Below, in pieces: positions 5,067 through 44,408 of a stretch of DNA of 64,000 bases. Position 1 is the first letter of the stretch, and every line of letters begins with the position of its first letter. The notes under the pieces are model-generated. The model did no database searches, was not told where the DNA came from, and saw nothing but the letters and a program-made list of their open reading frames with translations. Origin of the DNA: Gallionella sp. (GTDB lineage: Bacteria; Pseudomonadota; Gammaproteobacteria; Burkholderiales; Gallionellaceae); contig JADGRL010000001.1 of the NCBI GenBank assembly GCA_017880865.1, positions 62,001-126,000 on the forward strand. The letters run 5' to 3'. The translations under genes and the position numbers were made by a program.

Positions 5067-5149
5067 GGTTTGTTATTCAGATAATTCAGCAGGGGCGAAT
5101 TGTTGCACAAATACCTCCGGATGCCGACATCCGCTTCTCCCCAAACAAT

Positions 5150-5419
5150 TCAGAGACTATTATTTGTGCTGCCCTTATGAAAACGTGCGACGCCGGAAAA
5201 CAGAAGGGCAATCTCCTGCTGGGTTAATTCCGGATAGGCCTCGCGTAACGTCTGGCGTGCGTACATGGATAATGATGAGCCGCCCCAACTTTGCGCCGGG
5301 TCGAAGAACGGCGCCGTTATCCGGCAGGCGTCTTCAAAAATCAGGCGCAGATCGTGCCGGACACGGCGGTCAGTAACGCCACCCATTTCGGCATCCACTT
5401 TAGAATCAAGGTCGTCCAT
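5150..5419 (-). CDS. Small hypothetical protein (89 aa)
   Basis: The frame is open further upstream to 5617, where it would overlap the HD-GYP gene, but the ATG at 5417-5419 has a good Shine-Dalgarno (AAGGCG about 4 nt upstream) and is preferred. The product is soluble and acidic, with RRVRHDLRLIFEDACRIT and YARQTLREAYPEL helices; no transmembrane segment and no motif I recognise. It lies 141 bp downstream of the HD-GYP phosphodiesterase in the same direction and might be co-transcribed with it. Confidence 0.5.
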   Translation of the reverse strand: MDDLDSKVDAEMGGVTDRRVRHDLRLIFEDACRITAPFFDPAQSWGGSSLSMYARQTLREAYPELTQQEIALLFSGVARFHKGSTNNSL

Positions 5420-5559
5420 TTTCGCCTTATCAACTTGAAACACGGCTGGTATCTGAGCGGCCACATCGGCCGCGCTATCGAACCAGATCGGGTGCGCCGG
5501 ACATCGCGCCGGCAATATCAAAAATCGGGCGGCGCAAACCACATGCTGCCGAAAATCAA

Positions 5560-6684
5560 TCAGCCGAGAGGGTCTTCTTCGAATCTTTTCTGTATATCCT
5601 CCACCTCTTCGCGGCAACTGATCAAGGCCGCCACGCAGTCGTTGTCAAACTTGGTTCCCGCCATGGACTGCAAAAACATGAATGCCCGGTCGTTGCTCCA
5701 GGCTTCCTTGTAGGGTCGGGCGCTGGTCAGCGCATCGTACACATCGGCGACTGCAACGATTTTTGCCTCAATAGGTATCTCCTCGTCCATCAGCCCGTTA
5801 TATCCGCTACCGTTGATCGCCTCATGATGATAAAGCGCAATATTGCGCAAGATTTCCGCATGGGGAAATTCGTCAAGTCCCAGATTGGCCAGCATCATGT
5901 CGATGATCTCGCCACCCTTGGCAGCGTGGGTTTTCATCGTGTCGAATTCGGATTCCGTCAACTTGGCCGGCTTGAGCAATATGCTGTCGGATATGCCGAT
6001 CTTGCCGATGTCATGCAGCGGCGAAAATAAAAATATATGTTCCACGAGCTCATCGTTGAGCCGATATTTTTTTGCCACCTCTTTGGCGATCAACCGTGCA
6101 TAGTTAGACATCCGATCCAGATGAGCCCCGGTCTCGACGTCGCGGTGCAGCGTAATATTTGCGGCGGTTTTAACGATCGCATACAAGCTGCGCGTCGTCG
6201 ACATATCGTGGATCACCAGCAACGACAGCAAGTGCCCCACCAAATCCAGATAATGCAGGGGCGTCTCATCGAAAACATTTTTTCGATGGGAATTGAAGAA
6301 CAAAAAGCCGAAAAACTCGCCATTCATGAACATGGGCATGGTGTAGCTGGATTTGTACTGAAGTGCCGCAATGCGGCGTGCATGTTCTGCCTGAACATGG
6401 CTGAATATATCGAGATCATTGACTACGCGCGGGCGACCTACCTTCAGGATTTCCTGCAATGTTCCCGAATCAGCCAGTTTGGCGGAATATAAAACCAGCG
6501 GATTTTCACCCTCACTGCTCTGCACAAAAGTCTTCAGCAAATCCGTTTTTGGCTCATAAATCGCCACCGAAATCCGGTCGATGAAATCAAAACGATCTTT
6601 CAGTAAAGCATGGACGTGCTCAATCTTTTGCGGCAAAGGTAATTTGCCATTCAATGCGGAGAGGACATCTTGATGTTCAAACAT
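5560..6684 (-). CDS. GAF-HD-GYP cyclic-di-GMP phosphodiesterase
   Basis: 374-residue cytoplasmic signalling protein. Residues ~20-160 resemble a GAF sensor; residues ~165-350 form an HD-GYP domain, the class that hydrolyses c-di-GMP to pGpG or GMP. Metal-ligand motifs are present: H224-D225 in HDIGKIG, HHE at 286-288, and ADVYDALTSARPYKE. The signature loop reads GSGYN (292-296) instead of the usual GSGYP, so the 'GYP' proline is replaced by Asn. The ATG at 6684 lies about 30 nt downstream of a plausible sigma-70 promoter (6722-6749). Confidence 0.88.
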   Translation of the reverse strand: MFEHQDVLSALNGKLPLPQKIEHVHALLKDRFDFIDRISVAIYEPKTDLLKTFVQSSEGENPLVLYSAKLADSGTLQEILKVGRPRVVNDLDIFSHVQAEHARRIAALQYKSSYTMPMFMNGEFFGFLFFNSHRKNVFDETPLHYLDLVGHLLSLLVIHDMSTTRSLYAIVKTAANITLHRDVETGAHLDRMSNYARLIAKEVAKKYRLNDELVEHIFLFSPLHDIGKIGISDSILLKPAKLTESEFDTMKTHAAKGGEIIDMMLANLGLDEFPHAEILRNIALYHHEAINGSGYNGLMDEEIPIEAKIVAVADVYDALTSARPYKEAWSNDRAFMFLQSMAGTKFDNDCVAALISCREEVEDIQKRFEEDPLG

Positions 6685-6721
6685 GATGTAGTGAGATCCT
6701 GACTATTTAACTGCGGAGTAC

Positions 6722-6749
6722 AGTTTATCCAAACTGAACAACAGGTCAA
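6722..6749 (-). promoter_or_regulatory. Putative sigma-70 promoter of the HD-GYP gene
   Basis: On the minus strand TTGACC (6744-6749) and TAAACT (6722-6727) are separated by 16 bp, giving a transcription start near 6715 and a short leader before the ATG at 6684. Judged by motif match only. Confidence 0.4.
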
Positions 6750-7076
6750 CGGGTAAAACATATAACATGATTCTTTTGTTGGCTTACGGTTACAGCCCAT
6801 CACCCAATATCCGCGCGCCACACACGGTCTGTTGCCACTTCGTGCTTCACATTTAACGTCCCGAAATATGTCTTGCGCTGATTTTAGGCAATGTTTAGAG
6901 TGAGTGCCCTGTTTGCTCAACGGCGAGAACACAATGAGATTACGCCTCAGACTTCTACTATTGGTGCTTGCTTCATTCTGTAAGAAGCCCTTGGGCATCC
7001 TGGATGAATCGGTGCTCAACCTGACCGTTTTGCCTAACGATAACAATTCAACCCTGACCTATTTAACTCGCAATCC
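6750..7076. other. Intergenic region without a convincing gene
   Basis: Together with the promoter region this is ~390 bp between two divergent genes. Minus-strand frames run through it but have unusual composition, no ribosome site and no recognisable motif. Apart from the HD-GYP promoter I see no repeat, terminator or small gene here; it presumably also holds the promoter of the downstream plus-strand gene. Confidence 0.5.
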
Positions 7077-7568
7077 ATGAACTGGTTGACCAAACTGATC
7101 ACCGAAAAAACACGGGAGACCCTCGCACTGCGCTGGTTCGGGCTCACCAGGATTCCCCTGCTGTTCTACGTCGGCGTCACGGTCGCGGAAGTATCGCCTG
7201 ACCGGTTGGTGGTCAGGATACCGTTGCGACGCAAGACCCGTAATCACATGGGCTCGATGTACTTCGGCGCGCTCTGCATCGGTGCTGACTGTGCAGCCGG
7301 TGCGTTCGCCATGTACCTGATCAGGCAGCAGCCAGCAAACATCTCGCTGGTCTTCAAAGACTTTAATGCAGAGTTCCTCAAGCGCGCAGAAGGCGACGTG
7401 GATTTTTGCTGTAGTCAGGGCAAGGAAATCGCTGAACTTGTCGCCCAGGCCGCCGCATCGGATGAGAGAGTCGAAAGGCAGTTCGAGGTCATTGCCACGG
7501 TTCCGTCTTTGAGCGACGAGCCAGTTGCCCGTTTCAAATTGACGCTTTCGTTAAAGAGGCGGACATAA
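7077..7568 (+). CDS. Hotdog-fold DUF4442/PaaI-like protein
   Basis: 163-residue single-domain protein resembling DUF4442/YiiD-type hotdog proteins, relatives of PaaI acyl-CoA thioesterases. The segment RNHMGSMYFGALCIGADCAAG matches the hotdog helix where thioesterases carry an active Asp/Glu after a substrate-binding N-H-x-G; here NHMG and the following acidic residue are present. The substrate cannot be told. The start ATG has no strong ribosome site, but the N-terminus is of normal family length. It converges on addA. Confidence 0.75.
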   Translation: MNWLTKLITEKTRETLALRWFGLTRIPLLFYVGVTVAEVSPDRLVVRIPLRRKTRNHMGSMYFGALCIGADCAAGAFAMYLIRQQPANISLVFKDFNAEFLKRAEGDVDFCCSQGKEIAELVAQAAASDERVERQFEVIATVPSLSDEPVARFKLTLSLKRRT

Positions 7569-7641
7569 AACAATTCGAGCCGGTACATTTCATTCATATC
7601 AATCGCCGGGCTACCCCCGGCGAAAGTGCGCACAGCCCGCC

Positions 7642-10600
7642 CTACACTTCGCTCAACACCCCATCCGCAAACAGCAGCGCGCAGCGCACCGTCTTGCCCG
7701 GATAAACCGCCTGCATCGCAGAACGATACACATTCATCTGCGCGCGGTACGGCGCGGGGTTGGCGCTCTCGCCGGTCTTGTAATCCAGCACCCATACCTC
7801 GTCGTCGAATTCCACCAGACGGTCGATGCGTTTTAGTTCGCCTGTTGCATCGATGTAGGGCATCTCGTTGCAAGCGCTTCGGTACTGCTGCGCGTCAAAG
7901 AAGTGCGCGAGTTGCGGCAAGTTCAGCAGATGTTGTGCCTGTTGCCAGAGGGCTGGCAGCTGCGCTTCGGGGATACCGAGCAGCCGCTGCAGGGATTGCG
8001 CATCCGTCACTGCATCAGGCATGGCCAGGTGCTGCATCAAACCGTGCAGCCATATTCCACGGCGTTGCGCATCGGTCAGCGCGGCCTTGCGCGTGCCGGT
8101 GGGCAGCGGCTGGGTGAGGCGTTCGTCCAGAGTAAGGGACGGGACAGGCTCTATGTCATGTGAATCCGCTGCCTGTGCGACCAGCAGCGGATTCTCTGCC
8201 GACACTGCTTGCTTTGCATTGGCGATGCGGTCGTACCAGGTGCCTGCACTGCGCTCGCCGTTGCCGCTGACCAGCAGCGCCTGTTTGGCGCGCGTCATCG
8301 CGACGTACAGCAGATTCAAATCCTCGGTGCTGGCGAGCGCGGCATCCTGTTCGAAGTAGTGCTTGCGCGCCGCGCCCCGGCTGGCCTTGTCGCCGTAGAG
8401 CGAAAAATGCGCCGGGCGCATCGCTTGTGTCGGCCAGTCCACCAGCACATCGAAGCCCTTGTCGGCGGGCGACTTGGCATTGGCATCGAGCAACCAGACG
8501 ATGGGCGCTTCCAGCCCCTTGGCCTCGTGCACGGTGTAAATACGCACGGCGTTACCCGCCTGGCTGACCTTGCCCTCGTCGGGTGCTTCGTTGTCATCCG
8601 CCTTGCGCAGCTCGGCAAGTTCGCGCTGGAATCCGGGCAGGCTGGGATAACGTCCGGCATCGACATTCAGCGCGATCTCGATGAAGGCTTGCAGGTTGGC
8701 GGACACGGTGGCGCGCATCGCCTCCGGCACGGCGGCGGCATAACGGTTTTGCGCATCCCCTTCGAAATAAATGCGGTCGAGCAAATCATGCACCGGCAGT
8801 TTATCGGCCAGCACCTGCCAGCCTTGCAGCAAGCGATGGGCACGGCGCAGTTCGGCAGAGGCGGTATCGCTTTGTGCGATGCGTTGCAAACGCTGCCACC
8901 AGCTACCTCCGTCCTCTTCCTGTGCCAGCTGCATCAGATCATCATCGCTGCACGCGAAAATCGGCGTGCGCAACGAATGGGCCAATTGCAGATCGGCAAA
9001 CGGCGTGATCAGAAAGGTCAGCAGCGCCTGGATATCCAGTGCTTCCAGCGTATCGAGCAAACCGCCGCGCCTTGAGGTGAGGTAGGGAATATGCAGGGAG
9101 CGCAGCGCCTGCTCGTATATCTTGAGATGGGTGCGGCGGCGCACCAGCACCATGATGTCGCGGTACTCGGCACGGCGCTCAACATTATTCTCCTGTACGC
9201 TCCAGTTCGCCACGATGTTATTGATATGCGCGGCAAATTGTTCCGCTTCGCCCTCGCGCGCACCGACCTGTTGATCGGGATAAGGCTCGATAAGCGGGTT
9301 GCGCAGACGTAATTCGCCACTCGTCGAATCCGGCTGCACCGTCTCACCCTTATCCAACAGCGGAAGAATCTCGACATGGCCCGGCAAGGCTGTCTGATGG
9401 GCGTGATGGGTTTCGAAATCGGTGTATTCGGGCAGGCCGTCGAACACGCCGTTCACCACATTCAGCACGGCGGGCGCATTGCGGCGCGTTTCATTCTGGG
9501 TCAGGTAATGTGCCATGTAATGCTGCTGCAGAAACTCGCGCACCACGCCGAACAGCCGGGCATCGGCACGGCGAAAACGGTAGATTGATTGTTTGGGATC
9601 GCCCACCACAAACACCGTGGGCGTGCTTTGCACCGCGGCCGAGGCGGCGAACCACGCTTGCAATATCTGCCATTGCAGCGGATTGGTATCCTGAAACTCG
9701 TCCAGCAACACATGGCGATAACGGCTGTCCAGCTTGTATTGCAGGTATTCGGCGTGGTCGCTGTTATTGAGCAACTGGCGCACACGCCATTCCAGATCGC
9801 CGAAATCCAGCATCTGCTGGCGCTGTTTCAATGCCTGATAGGTGTCGAGCAAAGCCGCGCCGCAGCGCAGCGCGTGCTGGTTGGTCAGAAAAATGTGTTG
9901 CGCCTGCTTCTGGTCGGACGCCGCCAATAATTGCGCGCGCACCACCTCCACCGCGCAACTCAACTGCGCAACATCCTGTCCCTTGTTCGCCTTGATTATG
10001 CGCGGTTCATTCTTTTGCGTGAACAACTCATCCCACAACGCGGCAAACCACGGTGCTACCGTCAACGTGCCATCCAGCGGCGCAAGCAGGCGCGCAGCTT
10101 TGGCTTGCTGAGCGGCGCTGGCGTTCAGCAATCGGGCCAGCGTGCGCACATCGCCCGCGAAACTATCGTGGGCTGCAAGCTTCGCGATCGGGTCCGAGTC
10201 CATGTCGACATCCAGCTCGGCGCGCAGACTTTCCAGCGCATACTCCAGCGGATCGTGCTGCCCTGCCGTGTACGCCCACCATTCGCTGCGCTTGTTGGCA
10301 AAAGCGCGCAACATCTTCTGCGTGTTGCTCAAGCCGAACTCCTTGAACAGCACCTGCATCGATCGCGCAGCTTCCCCGTCGGGCTGGCTATGCAATTCAT
10401 CCAGAAAAGTCTGCCATGCCTCCTGCCACAATTCGGCGGTCTGCTCGACCAGTTGCACACCGCCTGCCATACCGGCATTGAGCGGCGCACGTTGCAATAT
10501 CTGCATGAACCAGCCGTGAAACGTGCTGATCGTGATGCCCGGCTGCGCCAGCAGGAATTGCTGATACAGGCTGCGGGCGCGCGGCAGCAGGCGTTCGATG

Positions 10601-36426: not shown

Positions 36427-37518
36427 TTAGACGTTAAACAAAAAATTCAGCACATCGCCATCCTGCACGACATAATCCTTACCTTCGACACGCATCTTGC
36501 CCTTTTCCTTGGCACCCGCTTCACCGCCGCAGGCGATGAAATCGGCAAAGGCAATGGTCTGCGCGCGGATGAAGCCTTTTTCGAAATCGGTGTGGATCAC
36601 GCCCGCTGCCTGCGGTGCGGTGTCGCCTTTGTGGATGGTCCAGGCACGCACCTCTTTTACTCCGGCGGTGAAATAAGTTTGCAGGCCGAGCAGCTCATAA
36701 CCGGTGCGGATCAGGCGGTTCAAGCCGGGTTCATCAAGACCCAGATCGGCGAGGAATTCTTTCTTGTCGGCATCGTCCAGGTCGGCCAACTCAGCTTCAA
36801 TTTTGGCGCAGAGCGCTACCACGGGTGCGCCCTCTTTCGCCGCATATTCACGCAAGCGATCGAGATGCGGGTTGTTCTCAAAACCGTCTTCCATCACGTT
36901 GCCGACATACATCGCAGGCTTGATCGTGAGCAGACACAAGGGCTTGAGCAGGAAAATCTCATCATCGCTCAAATTCATCGTGCGCGCAGGTTGCCCCTCG
37001 TTCAAATGCGGCAGCAGCTTCTCAAGTACGACGACCAGCTTCTGCGCATCCTTGTCACCCGATCGGGCTTTTTTGGTATCGCGATGCAGCGTGCGTTCCA
37101 CCACCGCCATATCCGCCAGCGCCAATTCGGTGATGATGGTTTCGATGTCGGCCAAGGGATCAATCTTGTTCGAGACGTGGATCACGTTCGGATCATCGAA
37201 ACAGCGCACCACGTTGACGATCGCATCGGTCTCGCGAATGTTGGCCAGGAACTGGTTGCCCAGGCCTTCACCCTTGGACGCGCCCGCGACCAGACCTGCG
37301 ATATCGACGAACTCGACGATGGCCGGCTGCATGCGCTGCGGCTTGACGATTTTCGCCAGCTCGTCCATGCGCGCATCCGGCACCTCGACGATGCCGACGT
37401 TCGGCTCGATCGTGCAGAAGGGATAATTCTCCGCCGCGATGCCCGCCTTGGTCAGCGCATTGAACAAGGTGGATTTGCCCACGTTAGGCAGGCCGACGAT
37501 TCCGCATTTCAAACTCAT
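36427..37518 (-). CDS. ychF: YchF redox-regulated ATPase
   Basis: 363 residues, Obg-related P-loop protein that prefers ATP. G1 [14 protein letters not shown] at the start, G3 [17 protein letters not shown], a central helical domain and a C-terminal TGS domain ([15 protein letters not shown] ... [13 protein letters not shown]). Normally the end of the pth-ychF pair in betaproteobacteria; here pth is 6.3 kb away with the cytochrome cluster between them on the opposite strand. Confidence 0.97.
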
Positions 37519-37781: not shown

Positions 37782-38993
37782 ATGGAAAAAATCTACGTAC
37801 TGATGGGTATTAAAGGGCGATCCATGTGTATTCGTATTATTAGGCTCGTAATAATGGTGGGCGCCATCAGTTGCGCGGGTTTACTTACTGTTTTGCAAAC
37901 AGAAGCCGCCGCCAAAGAAATTCCCGTTCCACTGACCAAGCTCGATAACGCAACTTGTCTGACCTGCCACGATGCAGACAAAGGGGATTTGAAAGCTACC
38001 GGAGCAAAGGCCACTTCCAAGCCGCTGCACGGCATCAATAACGACAAATTCGGCAAGAGCGTACATGGCGAAATGCAATGCGTTGCCTGCCACAAAGACA
38101 TCAGGGATGCTGTCGCACCGCACAAGAAAGGTACGGGGCAGAAAGCCGAATGCGTGTCGTGCCATCTTGCCTTGTGGGAAACAGCCAAGAAGGAAAACCT
38201 GACTCGTGAAAAAGCGCGCTTGGGCGTGGTGGTCAAGAACATCGAGACTTATAAAAGCTCATATCATGCGCGGCCCAACAAGGAAGACCCGTCGCGCGTC
38301 AATGCTGCCTGCGACGATTGCCACAACTCGCATACATTCAATGTCCCCCCTCAAGGAACTTCGCGACGCACGGATTGGCACCTGACTATCCCTGACGTGT
38401 GCGGCGCGCAATGCCATACCGACGAACTCGATGAATACAAGACTTCGGTGCATGGCAAGAAGGTACTGGAAGAGCACAACCAGAAGGCCGCCGTTTGCAT
38501 CGACTGTCACACCACACACGGCATCGCCAACACGTCCAAAGACACGTTCAAAATATCCATCACCGAGAATTGTGGCAGCTGCCATACCGAAAATTTGAAG
38601 TCCTACCGGTCTACCTATCACGGGCAAATCAACAAGCTGGGCTACGGTTATACGGCCAAGTGTTATGACTGCCATGGCAGCCACGGCATCCTGAGCCCGA
38701 AGGACCCGGAATCGAAAGTGCATCCGAATAACCGCCTGAAGACTTGCCAGAAATGCCATACGCAAGCGACTCAGGGGTTCGTGACTTTCAGCCCGCACGC
38801 CAACACCCATGACTTCGAGCGCTACCCCCAGGTGTGGATCGTATCGAGGTTCATGTGGGCATTGCTCGCGGGCGTATTTGCATTTTTCTGGTTGCACACC
38901 GGATTGTGGTGGTACCGCGAAGCACAGGATCGCAAGGCACGCAGGAACCATCCCGACAGACGCCATCCCGACAAACCGAGGAGTGCAAAATGA
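37782..38993 (+). CDS. Nine-haem c-type cytochrome with C-terminal membrane anchor
   Basis: 403 residues; an N-terminal signal-like helix (~17-42) precedes nine haem sites at C59, C100, C124, C177, C207, C239, C264, C294 and C322. Eight are CXXCH; the fifth is CGAQCH, a CX3CH spacing. A C-terminal helix (351-376) anchors it in the inner membrane. The next gene, a cytochrome b, overlaps by 4 bp. Nine c haems plus a b-type subunit match the composition of Geobacter CbcL, which is one fused polypeptide; here it is split. Role inferred: exchange of electrons with the quinone pool and passage to periplasmic cytochromes. ATGs at 37803 and 37824 are alternative starts. Confidence 0.85.
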   Translation: MEKIYVLMGIKGRSMCIRIIRLVIMVGAISCAGLLTVLQTEAAAKEIPVPLTKLDNATCLTCHDADKGDLKATGAKATSKPLHGINNDKFGKSVHGEMQCVACHKDIRDAVAPHKKGTGQKAECVSCHLALWETAKKENLTREKARLGVVVKNIETYKSSYHARPNKEDPSRVNAACDDCHNSHTFNVPPQGTSRRTDWHLTIPDVCGAQCHTDELDEYKTSVHGKKVLEEHNQKAAVCIDCHTTHGIANTSKDTFKISITENCGSCHTENLKSYRSTYHGQINKLGYGYTAKCYDCHGSHGILSPKDPESKVHPNNRLKTCQKCHTQATQGFVTFSPHANTHDFERYPQVWIVSRFMWALLAGVFAFFWLHTGLWWYREAQDRKARRNHPDRRHPDKPRSAK

Positions 38994-39850
38994 CACATCG
39001 TATTGTGGATGAATTGCCGCAACAGCATGGCAAGCAGGTACGGCGTTTCGGATTGATCTGGCGCATTGCGCACCTGTGTTTTGCGCTGAGCGTGATGCTG
39101 CTGATATTGACCGGCATGGCGGTGTTTTACGCCGACACGACCTGGGCACCGGTCATCATGCAGGCATTTGGCGGCCCCAGAGTGGCGGGCATCGTGCATC
39201 GCACCAGCGCGGCCATCATGCTGTCCATATTCTTTTTGCATCTGGTCGGCGTGAGTATCAACATCGCGCGCAACTGGAAAACATTCAAAATTTTCGGGCC
39301 GGATTCGCTGGTGCCAAACTGGAAGGACTTCAAGGATATTGTCGGGATGTTCAAGTGGTTCGTGGGCCGTGGCAAGCGGCCGATTTTCGACCGCTGGACG
39401 TACTGGGAGAAATTCGATTACTGGGCCGTGTTCTGGGGTATGGCCATCATCGGCAGCACCGGTATGATGTTGGCTTTCCCGAACGTGACCGCATCAATAT
39501 TACCCGGCTGGGTGTTTAACGTCGCCACCATCATTCACGGGGAAGAAGCTTTTCTCGCCGCCGTATTCCTGTTTACGGTGCACTTTTTCAACAACCATTT
39601 CAGGCCGGACAAGTTGCCGCCCCCGGATGTGGTGATGTTCACAGGCTCAGTACCGATGGAAGAGTTCAAGCGCGAACACCCGGCGCAATACGCGCGCATG
39701 GTTGAAACAGGACAGCTCGAAAAATATCTGGTGGATACACCGCCACACGCACTGACGCTGGGTTCCAAGATATTGGGGCTGACTCTGATCGCGATCGGAT
39801 TGACGCTGCTGGTGCTGGTGATCGTGGGCTTCGTATCTGCTTCGACATAA
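38990..39850 (+). CDS. Cytochrome b subunit, FdnI/HydC-type, partner of the nine-haem cytochrome
   Basis: 286 residues with about five hydrophobic segments. Candidate haem-b ligands are H28, H70, H84, H183 and H198 in membrane helices, and the loop FDRWTYWEKFDYW is typical of the hydrogenase/formate dehydrogenase cytochrome b family. GAGGAG precedes the ATG, which overlaps the previous stop (ATGA at 38990-38993), so the two proteins are probably made together and form one complex. It is expected to be the quinone-reactive part of the electron path. The stop codon directly abuts a MITE-like element. Confidence 0.85.
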   Translation: MTHRIVDELPQQHGKQVRRFGLIWRIAHLCFALSVMLLILTGMAVFYADTTWAPVIMQAFGGPRVAGIVHRTSAAIMLSIFFLHLVGVSINIARNWKTFKIFGPDSLVPNWKDFKDIVGMFKWFVGRGKRPIFDRWTYWEKFDYWAVFWGMAIIGSTGMMLAFPNVTASILPGWVFNVATIIHGEEAFLAAVFLFTVHFFNNHFRPDKLPPPDVVMFTGSVPMEEFKREHPAQYARMVETGQLEKYLVDTPPHALTLGSKILGLTLIAIGLTLLVLVIVGFVSAST

Positions 39851-39991
39851 GGGAACCTCTATAAATCCAAACTCCGTCGCGATACTGCGTTGCTCATAAA
39901 AAATTACTCCTAACATATCAGACATATGCGTCGTCGCAATTTTTTACTCGCGCCTTGTCTCGCTTAGGATCTTGGATTTATAGAGGCCCCC
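39851..39991. mobile_element. MITE-like palindromic element in the cytochrome cluster
   Basis: Terminal inverted repeats of 20 nt: GGGAACCTCTATAAATCCAA at 39851-39870 and its complement at 39972-39991 (18 of 20 match). The flanks show ATAA (or CATAA) on both sides, consistent with a target duplication; the left copy includes the TAA stop of the cytochrome b gene. About 140 bp, no ORF, internally palindromic (two AATTTTTTAC/AAAAAATTAC motifs in inverted sense). It separates the cytochrome b gene from the shuttle gene. Confidence 0.65.
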
Positions 39992-40032
39992 ATAACACAT
40001 AGTAAAAATTAACCACAACGAAAGGAAATCAA

Positions 40033-40377
40033 ATGAAATCAACTTTTATCGCCCGCGCCGCGCTGACCATTTTCGCTGCCCTATTCATGAGCGCCGCATC
40101 TGCCACCGAGATTGATGCCGATGCCGCAAAAAAACTGGCCAAGCACAACGATTGCTTCAAGTGTCATGCCGTGGACAAGGCCAAGAAAGGCCCGTCTTAC
40201 AAGAGCATTGCCATCAAGTACAAAGGCAAGACCGATGCTGAAGCCACACTGATCAAACAAATTACCACGGCACCCAAGGTCAAGCTCGATGACGGTACCG
40301 AAGAAGAACACAAGATCATCGACACCAAGGATCAAAAGGAGATGAAGAATCTGGTGGGCTGGATACTCTCGCTTTAG
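40033..40377 (+). CDS. mtoD: Small periplasmic monohaem cytochrome c (MtoD-like)
   Basis: 114 residues with a signal peptide (cleavage near SAASA, residue ~24) and one haem site C41-H45 (CFKCH), followed by AVDKAKKGPSYK as in c-551/c-552 proteins. By comparison with those, the usual distal methionine of the PMP motif is missing and H93 (EEEHKII) is in that region. The ribosome site AAAGGA is 6 nt before the ATG. Placed just before mtoA/mtoB-like genes, it is expected to shuttle electrons through the periplasm between inner-membrane and outer-membrane complexes, as proposed for MtoD. Confidence 0.8.
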   Translation: MKSTFIARAALTIFAALFMSAASATEIDADAAKKLAKHNDCFKCHAVDKAKKGPSYKSIAIKYKGKTDAEATLIKQITTAPKVKLDDGTEEEHKIIDTKDQKEMKNLVGWILSL

Positions 40378-40442
40378 TTGGCTGCCGAGACACGGCAAGG
40401 TTTTACTTGCTTATGAAATTTGAAAAGCCGGGGGAAAAGATA

Positions 40443-41480
40443 ATGAAATTATTGCGATGGATGTTAATCCTGATGGCCTTTGTGAGTGCAATGGGAGCGA
40501 TCGCTCCGGCATTTGCCGAAGATGCGCCACCAGCGGTTATTGAACAGAAACCGGCTCAGGACATTGTCTTGAAGGGCGATGCAAAATGCACGAGTTGCCA
40601 CGACGAAGCTGACGAACCCCAGCCTTCAATGCTCGAATTGCACCCGCAGGTGCTCAGCATCGGTAAAACCATGCACGGCACGACGGCGGACAGTCGCACG
40701 CCGACTTGCACCGACTGCCACGGTGAGAGCGCCAGTCACATCAACCACAAAGGCAGCGACAAGCCGCCCAAAGCAGATCGCACTTTCGGCAAGAATACGG
40801 TCACTCCCGCTGCGGAACGCAATGAAGCCTGCATGCGTTGTCACCAGAAAGATGCCAGCCGCCACTTGTGGATGGGCAGTGCGCATGAAAGCCACGATGT
40901 GGCCTGCACCTCATGCCACCAGATACACACGGCTCATGACAAGGTCAGGGACAAGCGCACCCAGCCCGAAGTGTGTTTCACCTGCCATAAGGAACAACGC
41001 GCGCAGGTCAACAAACAATCTCACCATCCCATACTGGAAGGCAAAGTGAGTTGTTCAGATTGCCATAACCCGCACGGCTCGGTTGGACCGAAGCTGATGA
41101 AGCGCGATAGTGTCGTCGAGACCTGCTACACCTGCCACATGGAGAAACGCGGGCCGTTCGTGCATAACCATCAACCGGTCAATGACGACTGCACGAATTG
41201 CCATATGCCGCACGGAACCACTGCCGACAACCTGCTCAAGGCGCGTCCGCCGCTGGTTTGCTACCAGTGCCATAGCGGGCACGGCACTCCCGGCATTGCC
41301 GGTATTGCACCGGGAATCAGCGGGTCGGTAAACGTTCCTGGGGTTAGCGGCAACAGCGCCAAGGCCAACACCAACATCGAGCAAGGGCGCGGCTGTCTGA
41401 ACTGCCATACCGAAATTCACGGCAGCAATAACCCGAACGGCGGACAGAATCTTCTGCCCCCAGCTTTCTTCCTGCGCTGA
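40443..41480 (+). CDS. mtoA: Decaheme c-type cytochrome, MtoA/MtrA family
   Basis: 345 residues, signal peptide cut near APAFA (25). Ten CXXCH sites at C49, C89, C130, C155, C178, C204, C228, C250, C273 and C318, the count and size of MtrA/MtoA. Between haems 9 and 10 is a ~40-residue Gly/Pro-rich insertion (PGISGSVNVPGVSG). MtrA-type proteins sit inside an MtrB barrel and conduct electrons across the outer membrane; direction may be inward (Fe(II) oxidation) or outward (metal reduction). The frame extends upstream to 40407, but the ATG at 40443 has GGGGGA before it and starts the signal peptide. Confidence 0.88.
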   Translation: MKLLRWMLILMAFVSAMGAIAPAFAEDAPPAVIEQKPAQDIVLKGDAKCTSCHDEADEPQPSMLELHPQVLSIGKTMHGTTADSRTPTCTDCHGESASHINHKGSDKPPKADRTFGKNTVTPAAERNEACMRCHQKDASRHLWMGSAHESHDVACTSCHQIHTAHDKVRDKRTQPEVCFTCHKEQRAQVNKQSHHPILEGKVSCSDCHNPHGSVGPKLMKRDSVVETCYTCHMEKRGPFVHNHQPVNDDCTNCHMPHGTTADNLLKARPPLVCYQCHSGHGTPGIAGIAPGISGSVNVPGVSGNSAKANTNIEQGRGCLNCHTEIHGSNNPNGGQNLLPPAFFLR

Positions 41481-41494
41481 TCTGGAGACCCATC

Positions 41495-43789
41495 ATGATA
41501 AACAAAAATACACACAAGGCTTTTCGTTTATTGCCCATTGCAGCAGTCCTGCTGGCTGCATTTGGTGACGTCCATGCGCAGGAGAATGCCGAAGTTAAGG
41601 AACTGATAACCCCGGATAGTGCGATCAGTGCCGGTGTCGGTGTGGTTAACAACACCTCTGATGCGAAGCGCTTCGGGCAATATACCGGGATGAACCAAGG
41701 CGGCGCTTACGGTCTGCTCGACTTCGATTTGATCAAGCGGAACGATGCCACGGGCACCTGGACGACGTTGCTGGGGCGCAATCTTGGCCTTGATACACGG
41801 GAAATCGCCTTGTCTCAGCAGAAGCAGGGAGACTGGAAGTACAAGTTTGACTATAACGAGATCGTCCGCCGAGATCCCTATACGATCCATACCGGCATGA
41901 CTGGCATAGGCACGACAACTCCCACCGTGAATTTGATCGCGACTCCCACGATGCCGGCTACCTGGGCAACGGCAAACGGCCTCGCTCCCAGCAACGGGGT
42001 GGCCGGTTCCGACGTGGACTTAAAGATCAAACGCACGGCCTTAGGGATCAGCGGAGAAAAGTGGCTGACGCCTGAATTGCAGTTTGAGGCCGGCTTTAAG
42101 AATGAAGACAAGAAGGGCGCCCGCATGTTTGGACGGGTCGGTATTGATTCCGCCGAAATGGGGCTCAGGCCTACCATAGGCACAGGTGGTGCAGGCGCCA
42201 CTGGCAATTGGGCCATGTTGCTGACGCCTGAGCCGATCAATTCAACCACTAGCCAATTTGAGGCGAAGATGAATTTCAGCAGGGACAAGTTGTCCCTCAC
42301 GGGAGGTTATTTCGGCTCTTTTTATACCAACCATTTTGGCAGCCTTTCCCCCACGGTGCCGGACATCCTGAATCGCGGGCCGCTCTGGAATGGCGGGCCC
42401 GCCGGTTCGTCGACCATAGCCCAGCTTGCGTCCGCCCCCGTTGCGTTGCCACCCGATAATCAGGCGCATCAGCTTTATCTCGCAGGAAACTGGGCTTATT
42501 CGTCCACCACCCGCACGAACTTCAAGTTGGCCTACACCCATGCGACGCAAAACGAAAGTTTTGCCGCGCAAGGATTGACCCCAGCCGCCACCGCCCCGGC
42601 AAGCCTAGGGGGCGTGGTGGATACCACGCTCGTGCAAACGGGATTGTCGATGCGTCCGGCGAAGGATCTGTCCGTCAACGCCAGCCTGCGCTACGAAGAT
42701 CGCGCGGATCGCACACCAGTCTATGTGTATAACACCAGCACGGCCAGCGTAGGGCTGAACAATACGACCAACTGGCCGTCTGCATCGCAGACCCGTACCA
42801 ACGCCAAGCTGGATGGAACCTATCGTTTACCCGCAGGATATTCCGCGACTCTGGGGACCGATTGGGAACGCAAGAATGCGCCGCTGCCACCGGCAAAAAC
42901 AGCCATTTTCGCGAACCAGGTCTTCTTCCGTCCGCAGCTGGATGAATACGGGGTGCATGGCGAGTTGCGAAAAACCATGGCTGAAACTTTAAGTGGTGCC
43001 ATCGGGGTCGAGTATAAACAGCGCAGGGGCAATGGGGATTGGGTTAGCTCATCCGCAGTGGCTGGCAATCCGATTGTCCCGGTCGCGGGCACACTGAACA
43101 ATGTCTTGGCGGACATGTACATGGACCGCAATCGCACCAAGTTGAAAGGCTCTCTCGACTGGTCACCGTCGGATCGACTTTCCTTGCAGGCGGCGCTCGA
43201 GCACGCACAGGATGATTACCAGCGGGCGGCCCCTGTTCCTGCCGTCGCCGTTACCCCGGGGGCGCGGGTTGTCATCATCGATTCATTGACGCTGGATAGC
43301 TCCTACACACTGTCTGAAGACTGGAGGCTGAACGGCTATTGGACACACAGTGAAAACAGATGGAACGTCAACAAAATCGCCATATCCGATGACACCCGCA
43401 ACTACACGGAAACCGTTGGTCTCGGCATCAAGGGCAAGGCGACCGGTCGTCTGGATATAGGGGCCGATATCCTGGCTACCCGTGACACGACCACCTTCAG
43501 TAATATGCCGGCTGCCGGCAATATCGCCGGATGGAATGGACAGCCTCTTCCCGGAAACTTCCTGCCTAAGATCCATTACAACACGGAGAAGCTGAACCTG
43601 TTTGCCAAGTACGCCCTCCAGAAGAGTTCCGATGTCCTGATGAACGTCGGCTACCAGCACTTCAAGACCGACGATTGGCAGTGGGGCTACAACGGCATTC
43701 CATTCCTGTATTCCGACAACACGACCGTTTCTCAACCCATGACCCAGCATCTATGGTTCGTTGCTGCGCGCTACATTTATACGTTCTAG
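41495..43789 (+). CDS. mtoB: MtoB/MtrB/PioB-family outer-membrane beta-barrel
   Basis: 764 residues, signal peptide to about AFGDVHA (28), then a long series of alternating amphipathic strands ending WFVAARYIYTF, with a terminal aromatic residue as required for barrel insertion. The N-terminal YGLLDFDLIKRND and GLDTREIALSQQKQG blocks are typical of the MtrB/PioB family. No N-terminal CXXC pair as in Shewanella MtrB is visible. It lies 14 bp after the decaheme gene, so the two form a porin-cytochrome complex spanning the outer membrane. No surface MtrC-like cytochrome follows. Confidence 0.88.
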   Translation: MINKNTHKAFRLLPIAAVLLAAFGDVHAQENAEVKELITPDSAISAGVGVVNNTSDAKRFGQYTGMNQGGAYGLLDFDLIKRNDATGTWTTLLGRNLGLDTREIALSQQKQGDWKYKFDYNEIVRRDPYTIHTGMTGIGTTTPTVNLIATPTMPATWATANGLAPSNGVAGSDVDLKIKRTALGISGEKWLTPELQFEAGFKNEDKKGARMFGRVGIDSAEMGLRPTIGTGGAGATGNWAMLLTPEPINSTTSQFEAKMNFSRDKLSLTGGYFGSFYTNHFGSLSPTVPDILNRGPLWNGGPAGSSTIAQLASAPVALPPDNQAHQLYLAGNWAYSSTTRTNFKLAYTHATQNESFAAQGLTPAATAPASLGGVVDTTLVQTGLSMRPAKDLSVNASLRYEDRADRTPVYVYNTSTASVGLNNTTNWPSASQTRTNAKLDGTYRLPAGYSATLGTDWERKNAPLPPAKTAIFANQVFFRPQLDEYGVHGELRKTMAETLSGAIGVEYKQRRGNGDWVSSSAVAGNPIVPVAGTLNNVLADMYMDRNRTKLKGSLDWSPSDRLSLQAALEHAQDDYQRAAPVPAVAVTPGARVVIIDSLTLDSSYTLSEDWRLNGYWTHSENRWNVNKIAISDDTRNYTETVGLGIKGKATGRLDIGADILATRDTTTFSNMPAAGNIAGWNGQPLPGNFLPKIHYNTEKLNLFAKYALQKSSDVLMNVGYQHFKTDDWQWGYNGIPFLYSDNTTVSQPMTQHLWFVAARYIYTF

Positions 43790-43823: not shown

Positions 43824-44408
43824 TTACGCGCTATGCAGCTTCAACATCGCCGCTTCGGTCTTGCCTTCGATGACCAGATGCGCGATGTTTAGCGCTTGCT
43901 GCATGGCCGCGTCGATCAGATCGCGCTCTTCGCGGCGCGGATCATTCAGCACATAGTTGGCCACTTCGGCACGGTCGCCGGGATGGCCGATGCCGATGCG
44001 CAGCCGCCAGAACTCCTTCGCTCCCAGATGCGAGATGATGTCTTTCAGGCCGTTATGCCCACCGTGTCCGCCGCCCATTTTCAGGCGTGCCACGCCCGGC
44101 GGTAAATCCAACTCGTCATGCACCACCAGCATTTCCGCCGGTTCAATTTTGTAGAACTGCGCCAGCGCGCCGACAGCCCGGCCACTGAGGTTCATGAAGG
44201 TTTGCGGCTTGAGCAACAACACTTCATGTCCATGCAACGACCCGCGCGCCGTCAGGCCGTGGAATTTGCTCTCACTTTTAAAATTTAACTTTTGTTCGCG
44301 CGCGAATTCGTCCACCCACCGGAAACCGACGTTGTGCCGGGTGGTCTCATATTCGCGTCCGGGGTTGCCCAGACCAACAATCAAACGTATCGCAGTCATG
44401 CCGTTCAT
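43824..44408 (-). CDS. pth: Peptidyl-tRNA hydrolase
   Basis: 194 residues; releases stalled peptidyl-tRNA. Signature [18 protein letters not shown] with the catalytic His, and HDELDLPPG ... [13 protein letters not shown]. The start may be the ATG at 44408 or the third codon downstream at 44399. It lies downstream of rplY after a terminator-like hairpin. Confidence 0.96.

Follow-up and report, generated by a model that had tools for sequence, protein, structure and literature searches.

Genes of the mto locus

We analysed a window of 64 kb (bases 62001-126000 of contig 1) from a Gallionella genome of 2.85 Mb that is 95.5% complete. It contains five forward-strand genes predicted to encode an MtoC-type inner-membrane quinone module divided between two genes, the monohaem cytochrome MtoD and the outer-membrane conduit proteins MtoA and MtoB. 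A preliminary description of this DNA had listed five genes on one strand, beginning with an anchored nine-haem cytochrome whose gene overlaps that of a cytochrome b by 4 bp. Reading frames, haem motifs and profile searches confirm all of the genes, their order and their coordinates.

The first gene, mtoC part 1 (37782-38993, 403 amino acids (aa)), encodes a nine-haem cytochrome c with eight CX2CH motifs and one CX3CH motif, and the second, mtoC part 2 (38990-39850, 286 aa), an FdnI-type cytochrome b with five membrane helices. The stop codon of part 1 and the start codon of part 2 share the bases ATGA (38990-38993), with a Shine-Dalgarno-like GGAG six bases 5′ of the ATG. Downstream lie mtoD (40033-40377, 114 aa, one CX2CH, PF00034), a predicted periplasmic cytochrome c shuttle; mtoA (40443-41480, 345 aa, ten CX2CH), a predicted periplasmic decahaem cytochrome of the conduit that scores 262 bits against TIGR03508 (cut-off 192); and mtoB (41495-43789, 764 aa), an outer-membrane β-barrel of the MtrB/PioB family (PF11854, E = 1.3e-113; TIGR03509 above cut-off). 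A DmsE-family decahaem cytochrome is thus encoded beside an MtrB/PioB barrel, both with profiles above cut-off, as in MtoAB, MtrAB and PioAB conduits. MtoA also matches 6r2q_A (E = 1.4e-63), although the molecule name printed for that entry does not suit a cytochrome. Of the window's 510 stop-to-stop frames with a length of 60 aa or more, only mtoC part 1 and mtoA carry two or more CX2CH motifs. The extracellular decahaem cytochrome MtrC of MtrCAB systems was not found within the window, to which the search for it was confined.

Between mtoC part 2 and mtoD lies a palindromic dispersed repeat of about 140 bp (39846-39986) that resembles a miniature inverted-repeat transposable element, with terminal inverted repeats CCTCTATAAATCCAA...TTGGATTTATAGAGG. 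It is matched at four further places in the same genome (75-85% identity over parts) and has a predicted fold of −47.6 kcal/mol (z = −6.1). The gap that holds it is 182 bp long, compared with about 40-65 bp in five other genomes with a split mtoC (below), which is too short for the repeat.

The two halves of MtoC

The nine-haem protein begins with a signal-like hydrophobic stretch and ends with a single membrane helix (residues about 351-369), in keeping with the anchor originally proposed. Its nine c-haem motifs fall within the 3-23 published for the CbcL/MtrH/MtoC family. The ninth is CGAQCH, a CX3CH motif at which haem attachment is putative; its nearest one-gene relatives also have CX3CH there, and some more distant ones CX2CH. 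The same pattern of eight plus one motifs is common to all one-gene MtoCs of the same survey genus except one (G030). By hydropathy, and excluding the signal stretch, the window's pair and four one-gene relatives have one plus five helices, equal to the six reported for CbcL and MtoC in the accessible parts of the sources (PMC6295460, PMC9129911). The pair therefore has the family's architecture, a multihaem c domain followed by a six-helix HydC/FdnI-type b domain, on two overlapping frames rather than a single polypeptide, and by its place on our trees, inside the MtoC-type proteins, it is a split derivative.

Sequence comparison identifies the two proteins as the halves of MtoC. In a survey of the window's family, one-gene MtoCs share 58-72% identity with the cytochrome b in their b domain (up to 77% in a class-wide sample) and 45-66% with part 1 in their nine-haem domain (47-66% within the same survey genus). 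His28, His70, His183 and His198, which belong to the invariant histidines of the cytochrome b, lie within helices, and by analogy with the FdnI fold it probably holds two b haems. Its structure model has five long helices and matches the γ subunit of formate dehydrogenase-N (FDH-N; 1kqf_C, E = 5e-5, template modelling (TM) score 0.75 by target).

We rejected membership of the cytochrome b in the hydrogenase or formate dehydrogenase cytochrome b families, since its scores lie below the curated cut-offs (TIGR01583, 36 against 116 bits; PF01292, 28.2 against 30.1), and retain a kinship of fold. Grouping with unrelated subunits of these enzymes, which the preliminary description had named as a test of its proposal, is therefore not what we find; the likeness to FDH γ is remote. 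Sequence searches of the PDB, one with the nine-haem protein and one with a profile of the cytochrome b, returned no hit at E 0.1, and a model of a one-gene MtoC had no match there at E 0.001 (best FdnI, 0.011). The description's CbcL-like quinone module, with nine c haems ahead of a b domain, holds, its tie to CbcL being the published homology of MtoC and CbcL. Its predicted conduit from the inner membrane to the cell surface, with a split module of this kind, is likewise supported.

Distribution and origin of the split

The family survey covered 158 genomes searched with the cytochrome b. Matches at E 0.001 occurred in 29, and in the 26 of these with close matches we counted 21 places where mtoC is one gene (frames of 655-719 aa) and six split genomes: the window's own (G000), G051, G053, G036, G086 and G093. 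One of the six, G093, carries one split and one one-gene copy, and two pieces at contig ends of G132 were left unclassed.

Three further samples contain almost only one-gene forms; a few genomes are common to more than one sample. In the class-wide sample (369 genomes), 24 places besides the window's own reach at least 46% identity; 23 lie in frames of 461-746 aa and one is cut short after 198 aa. In that sample no separate frame for the cytochrome b exceeds about 40% identity. Among 25 places at E 1e-50 in an order-wide sample (399 genomes), 23 are in frames of 557-765 aa, one is the window's own and one is a separate frame (G898, 42%). A collection of named genomes, limited to the best 80 matches so that close relatives of the window may be left out, lists 79 loci; 78 have the cytochrome b and haem motifs in one frame, with several of these frames truncated at contig ends, and the other lacks haem motifs and is itself truncated in this way.

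On the MtoC trees, which have no outgroup, the split rows form one clade nested among one-gene rows. Its Shimodaira-Hasegawa-like approximate likelihood-ratio support is 100 in a tree of 115 rows (omitting frames that have fewer than eight CX2CH or do not exceed 600 aa, second copies per locus and six duplicates), and its support is 100/100 in a tree of 44 rows chosen from these by hand; in the G086 row, sequence from two contigs is combined. Because the split clade is nested among one-gene MtoCs and CbcL is also one protein, the pair is most simply read as the product of a single gene fission. We found no description of a split mtoC in the literature searched, which excluded supplements and most subscription papers. 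What is new here is an mtoC divided into two genes that overlap by 4 bp, an arrangement kept throughout a small clade; the operon type itself is known.

Separate cytochrome b genes outside this clade were considered as a second, independent split of MtoC; we rejected this and read them as, more probably, other two-gene architectures. In G385, G447 and G244 a separate cytochrome b (about 40% identity) adjoins a gene for a three-haem protein, with an octahaem gene beside that in G385 and G447. At L236 (6341-9089), L237 (2754-5545) and L238 (1845-3348) the cytochrome b gene (about 40%) overlaps the three-haem gene, with an octahaem neighbour in the first two, an arrangement that we read as another two-gene c/b module. 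The separate cytochrome b of G898 (42-44%) lies near a 469-aa gene with six plus one haem motifs and no match to part 1. Two distant pairs of nine-haem-like and cytochrome b genes occur at L239 (4337-15669) and at L094; in L239 they flank a gene for an 18-haem cytochrome.

Linkage to mtoAB and exchange of modules

A survey of the five-gene order had been suggested for this locus, and the order proves common to only two of the six split loci: mtoD, mtoA and mtoB follow the pair in the window and in G051. The other four (G053, G036, G093 and G086) have mtoD after the pair and no mtoAB on the stretch examined; that of G086 is a contig of only 3.7 kb. In all six, the gene after the cytochrome b is mtoD, whose product is 61-82% identical to the window's in the other five. 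By profile search, G053 has an MtrB/PioB barrel with mtoD and mtoA on another contig, and no PF11854 barrel was detected in G036, G086 or G093 (82%, 93% and 99% complete). The stretch carries both mtoA and mtoB at 25 of the 79 named one-gene loci listed, and at 22 of the 40 where it extends 6 kb or more to each side.

Chance co-occurrence with mtoAB, which the preliminary description had allowed could undo its proposal, is countered at the level of the family and less so at the loci themselves. An MtrB/PioB barrel is present in 15 of 26 genomes with MtoC and 23 of 132 without (Fisher p = 5e-5, uncorrected for relatedness; G119 was scored as lacking a barrel despite a partial mtoB at the edge of a contig), whereas linkage is loose, at two of six split loci.

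In a tree of MtoA (36 rows, omitting two very long rows and a duplicate of the window), the window, G051, G063 and G135 group at 100/100. In the 44-row tree the MtoCs of the window and G051, of G063 and of G135 fall in three clades, and an approximately unbiased test rejects the window, G051 and G063 as one MtoC clade (p = 1e-51; group chosen after seeing the trees). Since one MtoA lineage stands with three MtoC clades, these trees indicate that the inner-membrane module is exchanged behind one MtoAB lineage.

With mtoAB adjoining it at only two of six loci, the split pair looks like a portable quinone module. It may, at slightly less than even chances, be a general link between quinone and periplasm that serves whatever conduit or periplasmic oxidoreductase is present, such as MtoAB, megacytochromes like those of PCC3 or an octahaem cytochrome, with the adjacency to mtoAB here a result of recombination. 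The four loci with no mtoAB on the examined stretch and the discordant MtoA and MtoC clades, with the rejection above, favour this view. So do the neighbouring genes: in G036 mtoD is followed by an octahaem cytochrome gene (PF13447; L068, 8144-9646) instead of mtoAB, and a 24-haem and a 36-haem gene are neighbours elsewhere (L240); in G053, G086 and G093 a gene of 379-408 aa with four haem motifs lies nearby. Against it stand the co-occurrence of MtoC with the barrel across the family and the constant presence of MtoD after the pair. A general role is compatible with the explanation we prefer, set out below, rather than opposed to it.

On another contig of the window's own genome (L243, G000:C26:120000-135000, at 5081-8330), two adjacent genes carry 24 and 13 haem motifs and resemble those of PCC3 megacytochromes. 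The mto cluster is flanked by genes at 36427-37518 and 43824-44408 of the window, which we take to be ychF-like and pth-like. G093 (L070) likewise has a one-gene mtoC, with a gene carrying six haem motifs after it, bounded by homologues of prs/rplY/pth and of ychF, and the ychF/pth interval may be a repeated insertion slot.

Proposed path and direction of electron flow

We consider it likely that the locus is an mtoC-mtoD-mtoA-mtoB operon in which mtoC has undergone fission, that the halves reassemble into the same enzyme and that this enzyme carries electrons taken up from outside the cell to ubiquinone. Part 1, with nine c haems and an anchor helix, and part 2, with five helices and probably two haems, would reassemble in the inner membrane into the equivalent of a one-gene MtoC. 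Electrons from a surface donor, Fe(II) or Fe(II) minerals, would enter MtoA inside MtoB and pass through the monohaem MtoD or another shuttle to the nine-haem subunit, then over the two b haems to ubiquinone.

The direction is suggested by the rest of the genome. Profile searches place UbiA and RuBisCO above cut-off, MqnA was not found in any of five genomes searched, the window's included, and MenD was below cut-off in all five; 14 of 14 controls matched, seven of them above cut-off. With UbiA and RuBisCO present, MqnA not found and MenD below cut-off, the gene content speaks more for an autotroph that passes incoming electrons to ubiquinone than for metal reduction of the Geobacter kind.

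The reverse direction, in which the pair oxidises ubiquinol and MtoAB delivers the electrons outward to Fe(III), appears unlikely. The CbcL/MtrH/MtoC family has been proposed to be bidirectional (PMC6295460) and a published tree does not separate MtoA from MtrA (PMC10734462), as far as these sources were available. The quinone genes and RuBisCO speak for uptake, and Geobacter CbcL is reported as part of a menaquinone system with low-potential acceptors (PMC12307469, PMC9129911, both seen in part). The preliminary description had held the conduit able to run as iron oxidation or metal reduction; the second is weakened by the lack of MqnA and of any MenD above cut-off.

Several points weigh against the explanation we prefer. 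At 95.5% completeness, a gene not found in this genome is weak evidence. MtoD of Sideroxydans lithotrophicus ES-1 is reported, in the portion of the paper available, without interaction with MtoA or ImoA (PMC13390432), so that the MtoD step may be wrong. Two of six split loci with adjacent mtoAB, and three of six genomes with no detected barrel, mean that the pair cannot be tied to MtoAB alone. Finally, the repeat lies between part 2 and mtoD and could there uncouple one half of the operon from the other.

The junction between the halves

The ATGA overlap occurs in all six split genomes, within AAAATGA in five and CCATGA in one, and by inspection most of the six junctions have a Shine-Dalgarno-like run about six bases before the ATG; the overlapping genes are probably translationally coupled. 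For a one-gene Gallionella MtoC (L131; 42-row alignment), the AlphaFold model has a mean predicted local distance difference test score (pLDDT) of 76.9 and two stretches below 50: one follows the N-terminal helix (residues 18-45) and the other (387-408) separates the helix at 351-384 from the b domain. The split aligns with 387-408, in the model a linker from helix 1 to the cytochrome b and its sole low-confidence stretch past the N-terminus.

Ratios of non-synonymous to synonymous substitution (dN/dS) are 0.07-0.20 for part 1 (11 of 15 pairs; four saturated) and 0.05-0.12 for part 2 (nine of ten pairs from five genomes; one saturated), indicating purifying selection on both halves. Because a one-base backward slip at AAAATGA would re-enter the cytochrome b frame at its ATG, some one-piece MtoC could also be made; that the fission created a two-subunit quinone module with tunable amounts of its parts, together with such slippage, strikes us as improbable. 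We reject the view that the split is a decaying pseudogene or an error of assembly or sequencing. An indel causing a frame change and stop, and the mostly fragmented assemblies, might point that way, but the identical overlap recurs in six genomes of 67-91% pairwise protein identity and both halves have dN/dS well under 1.

MtoC and CbcL enzymes are a little-studied step between the quinone pool and extracellular electron wires. The position of the natural break, in the linker that follows helix 1, points to a nine-haem domain and a cytochrome b that are able to function as separate proteins, each maybe easier to express and exchange, and the conflict between the MtoA and MtoC trees shows that inner- and outer-membrane modules of these bacteria are exchanged. 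Surveys that assume a one-gene MtoC could overlook or misname split loci.

Comparison with known systems

The preliminary description regarded the locus as a new hybrid of the Geobacter and Mto designs; the design proves already published. Within the parts of the sources available, MtoC is described as a CbcL homologue of Gallionella capsiferriformans ES-2 and D. aromatica that shares about 35% identity with CbcL (PMC6295460), D. aromatica is reported to have the four mto genes of ES-2, and a nonahaem MtoC is reported in the mto operon of ES-2 (PMC5566968). The ES-2 cluster (Galf_2003-2006, PMC3770913), read from Galf_2006 to Galf_2003, has the same mtoC-mtoD-mtoA-mtoB order as the window and the same nine-haem CbcL-type MtoC. 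In Betaproteobacteria, mtoC and mtoD are also reported beside mtrCAB (PMC8805035, in part). Within the family surveyed, G017 has the window's order on one contig, with mtoC as one gene (678-aa frame); its MtoC falls in a different clade and its MtoB is only 27% identical.

As reported in the available parts of the sources, CbcL of Geobacter sulfurreducens is like the pair in its nine c haems and six-helix di-haem b domain and in acting as a quinone oxidoreductase (PMC9129911); it differs in being one protein of a menaquinone system, and the 35% identity to MtoC is the published figure (PMC6295460). S. lithotrophicus ES-1 has homologues of MtoA, MtoB and MtoD in one cluster and differs, according to the same partly available paper, in having the NapC/NirT-type tetrahaem ImoA (CymA-like) and PmcA in place of MtoC (PMC13390432).

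FdnI of Escherichia coli shares the fold of the cytochrome b (1kqf_C, TM 0.75 by target), and differs in that the sequence score of the window's protein lies far below the family cut-off (36 against 116 bits). In FDH-N, an electron-carrying subunit anchored by one helix pairs with a separately encoded cytochrome b. The partner of FdnI is an iron-sulfur protein, and that of the window's cytochrome b would be a nine-haem cytochrome.

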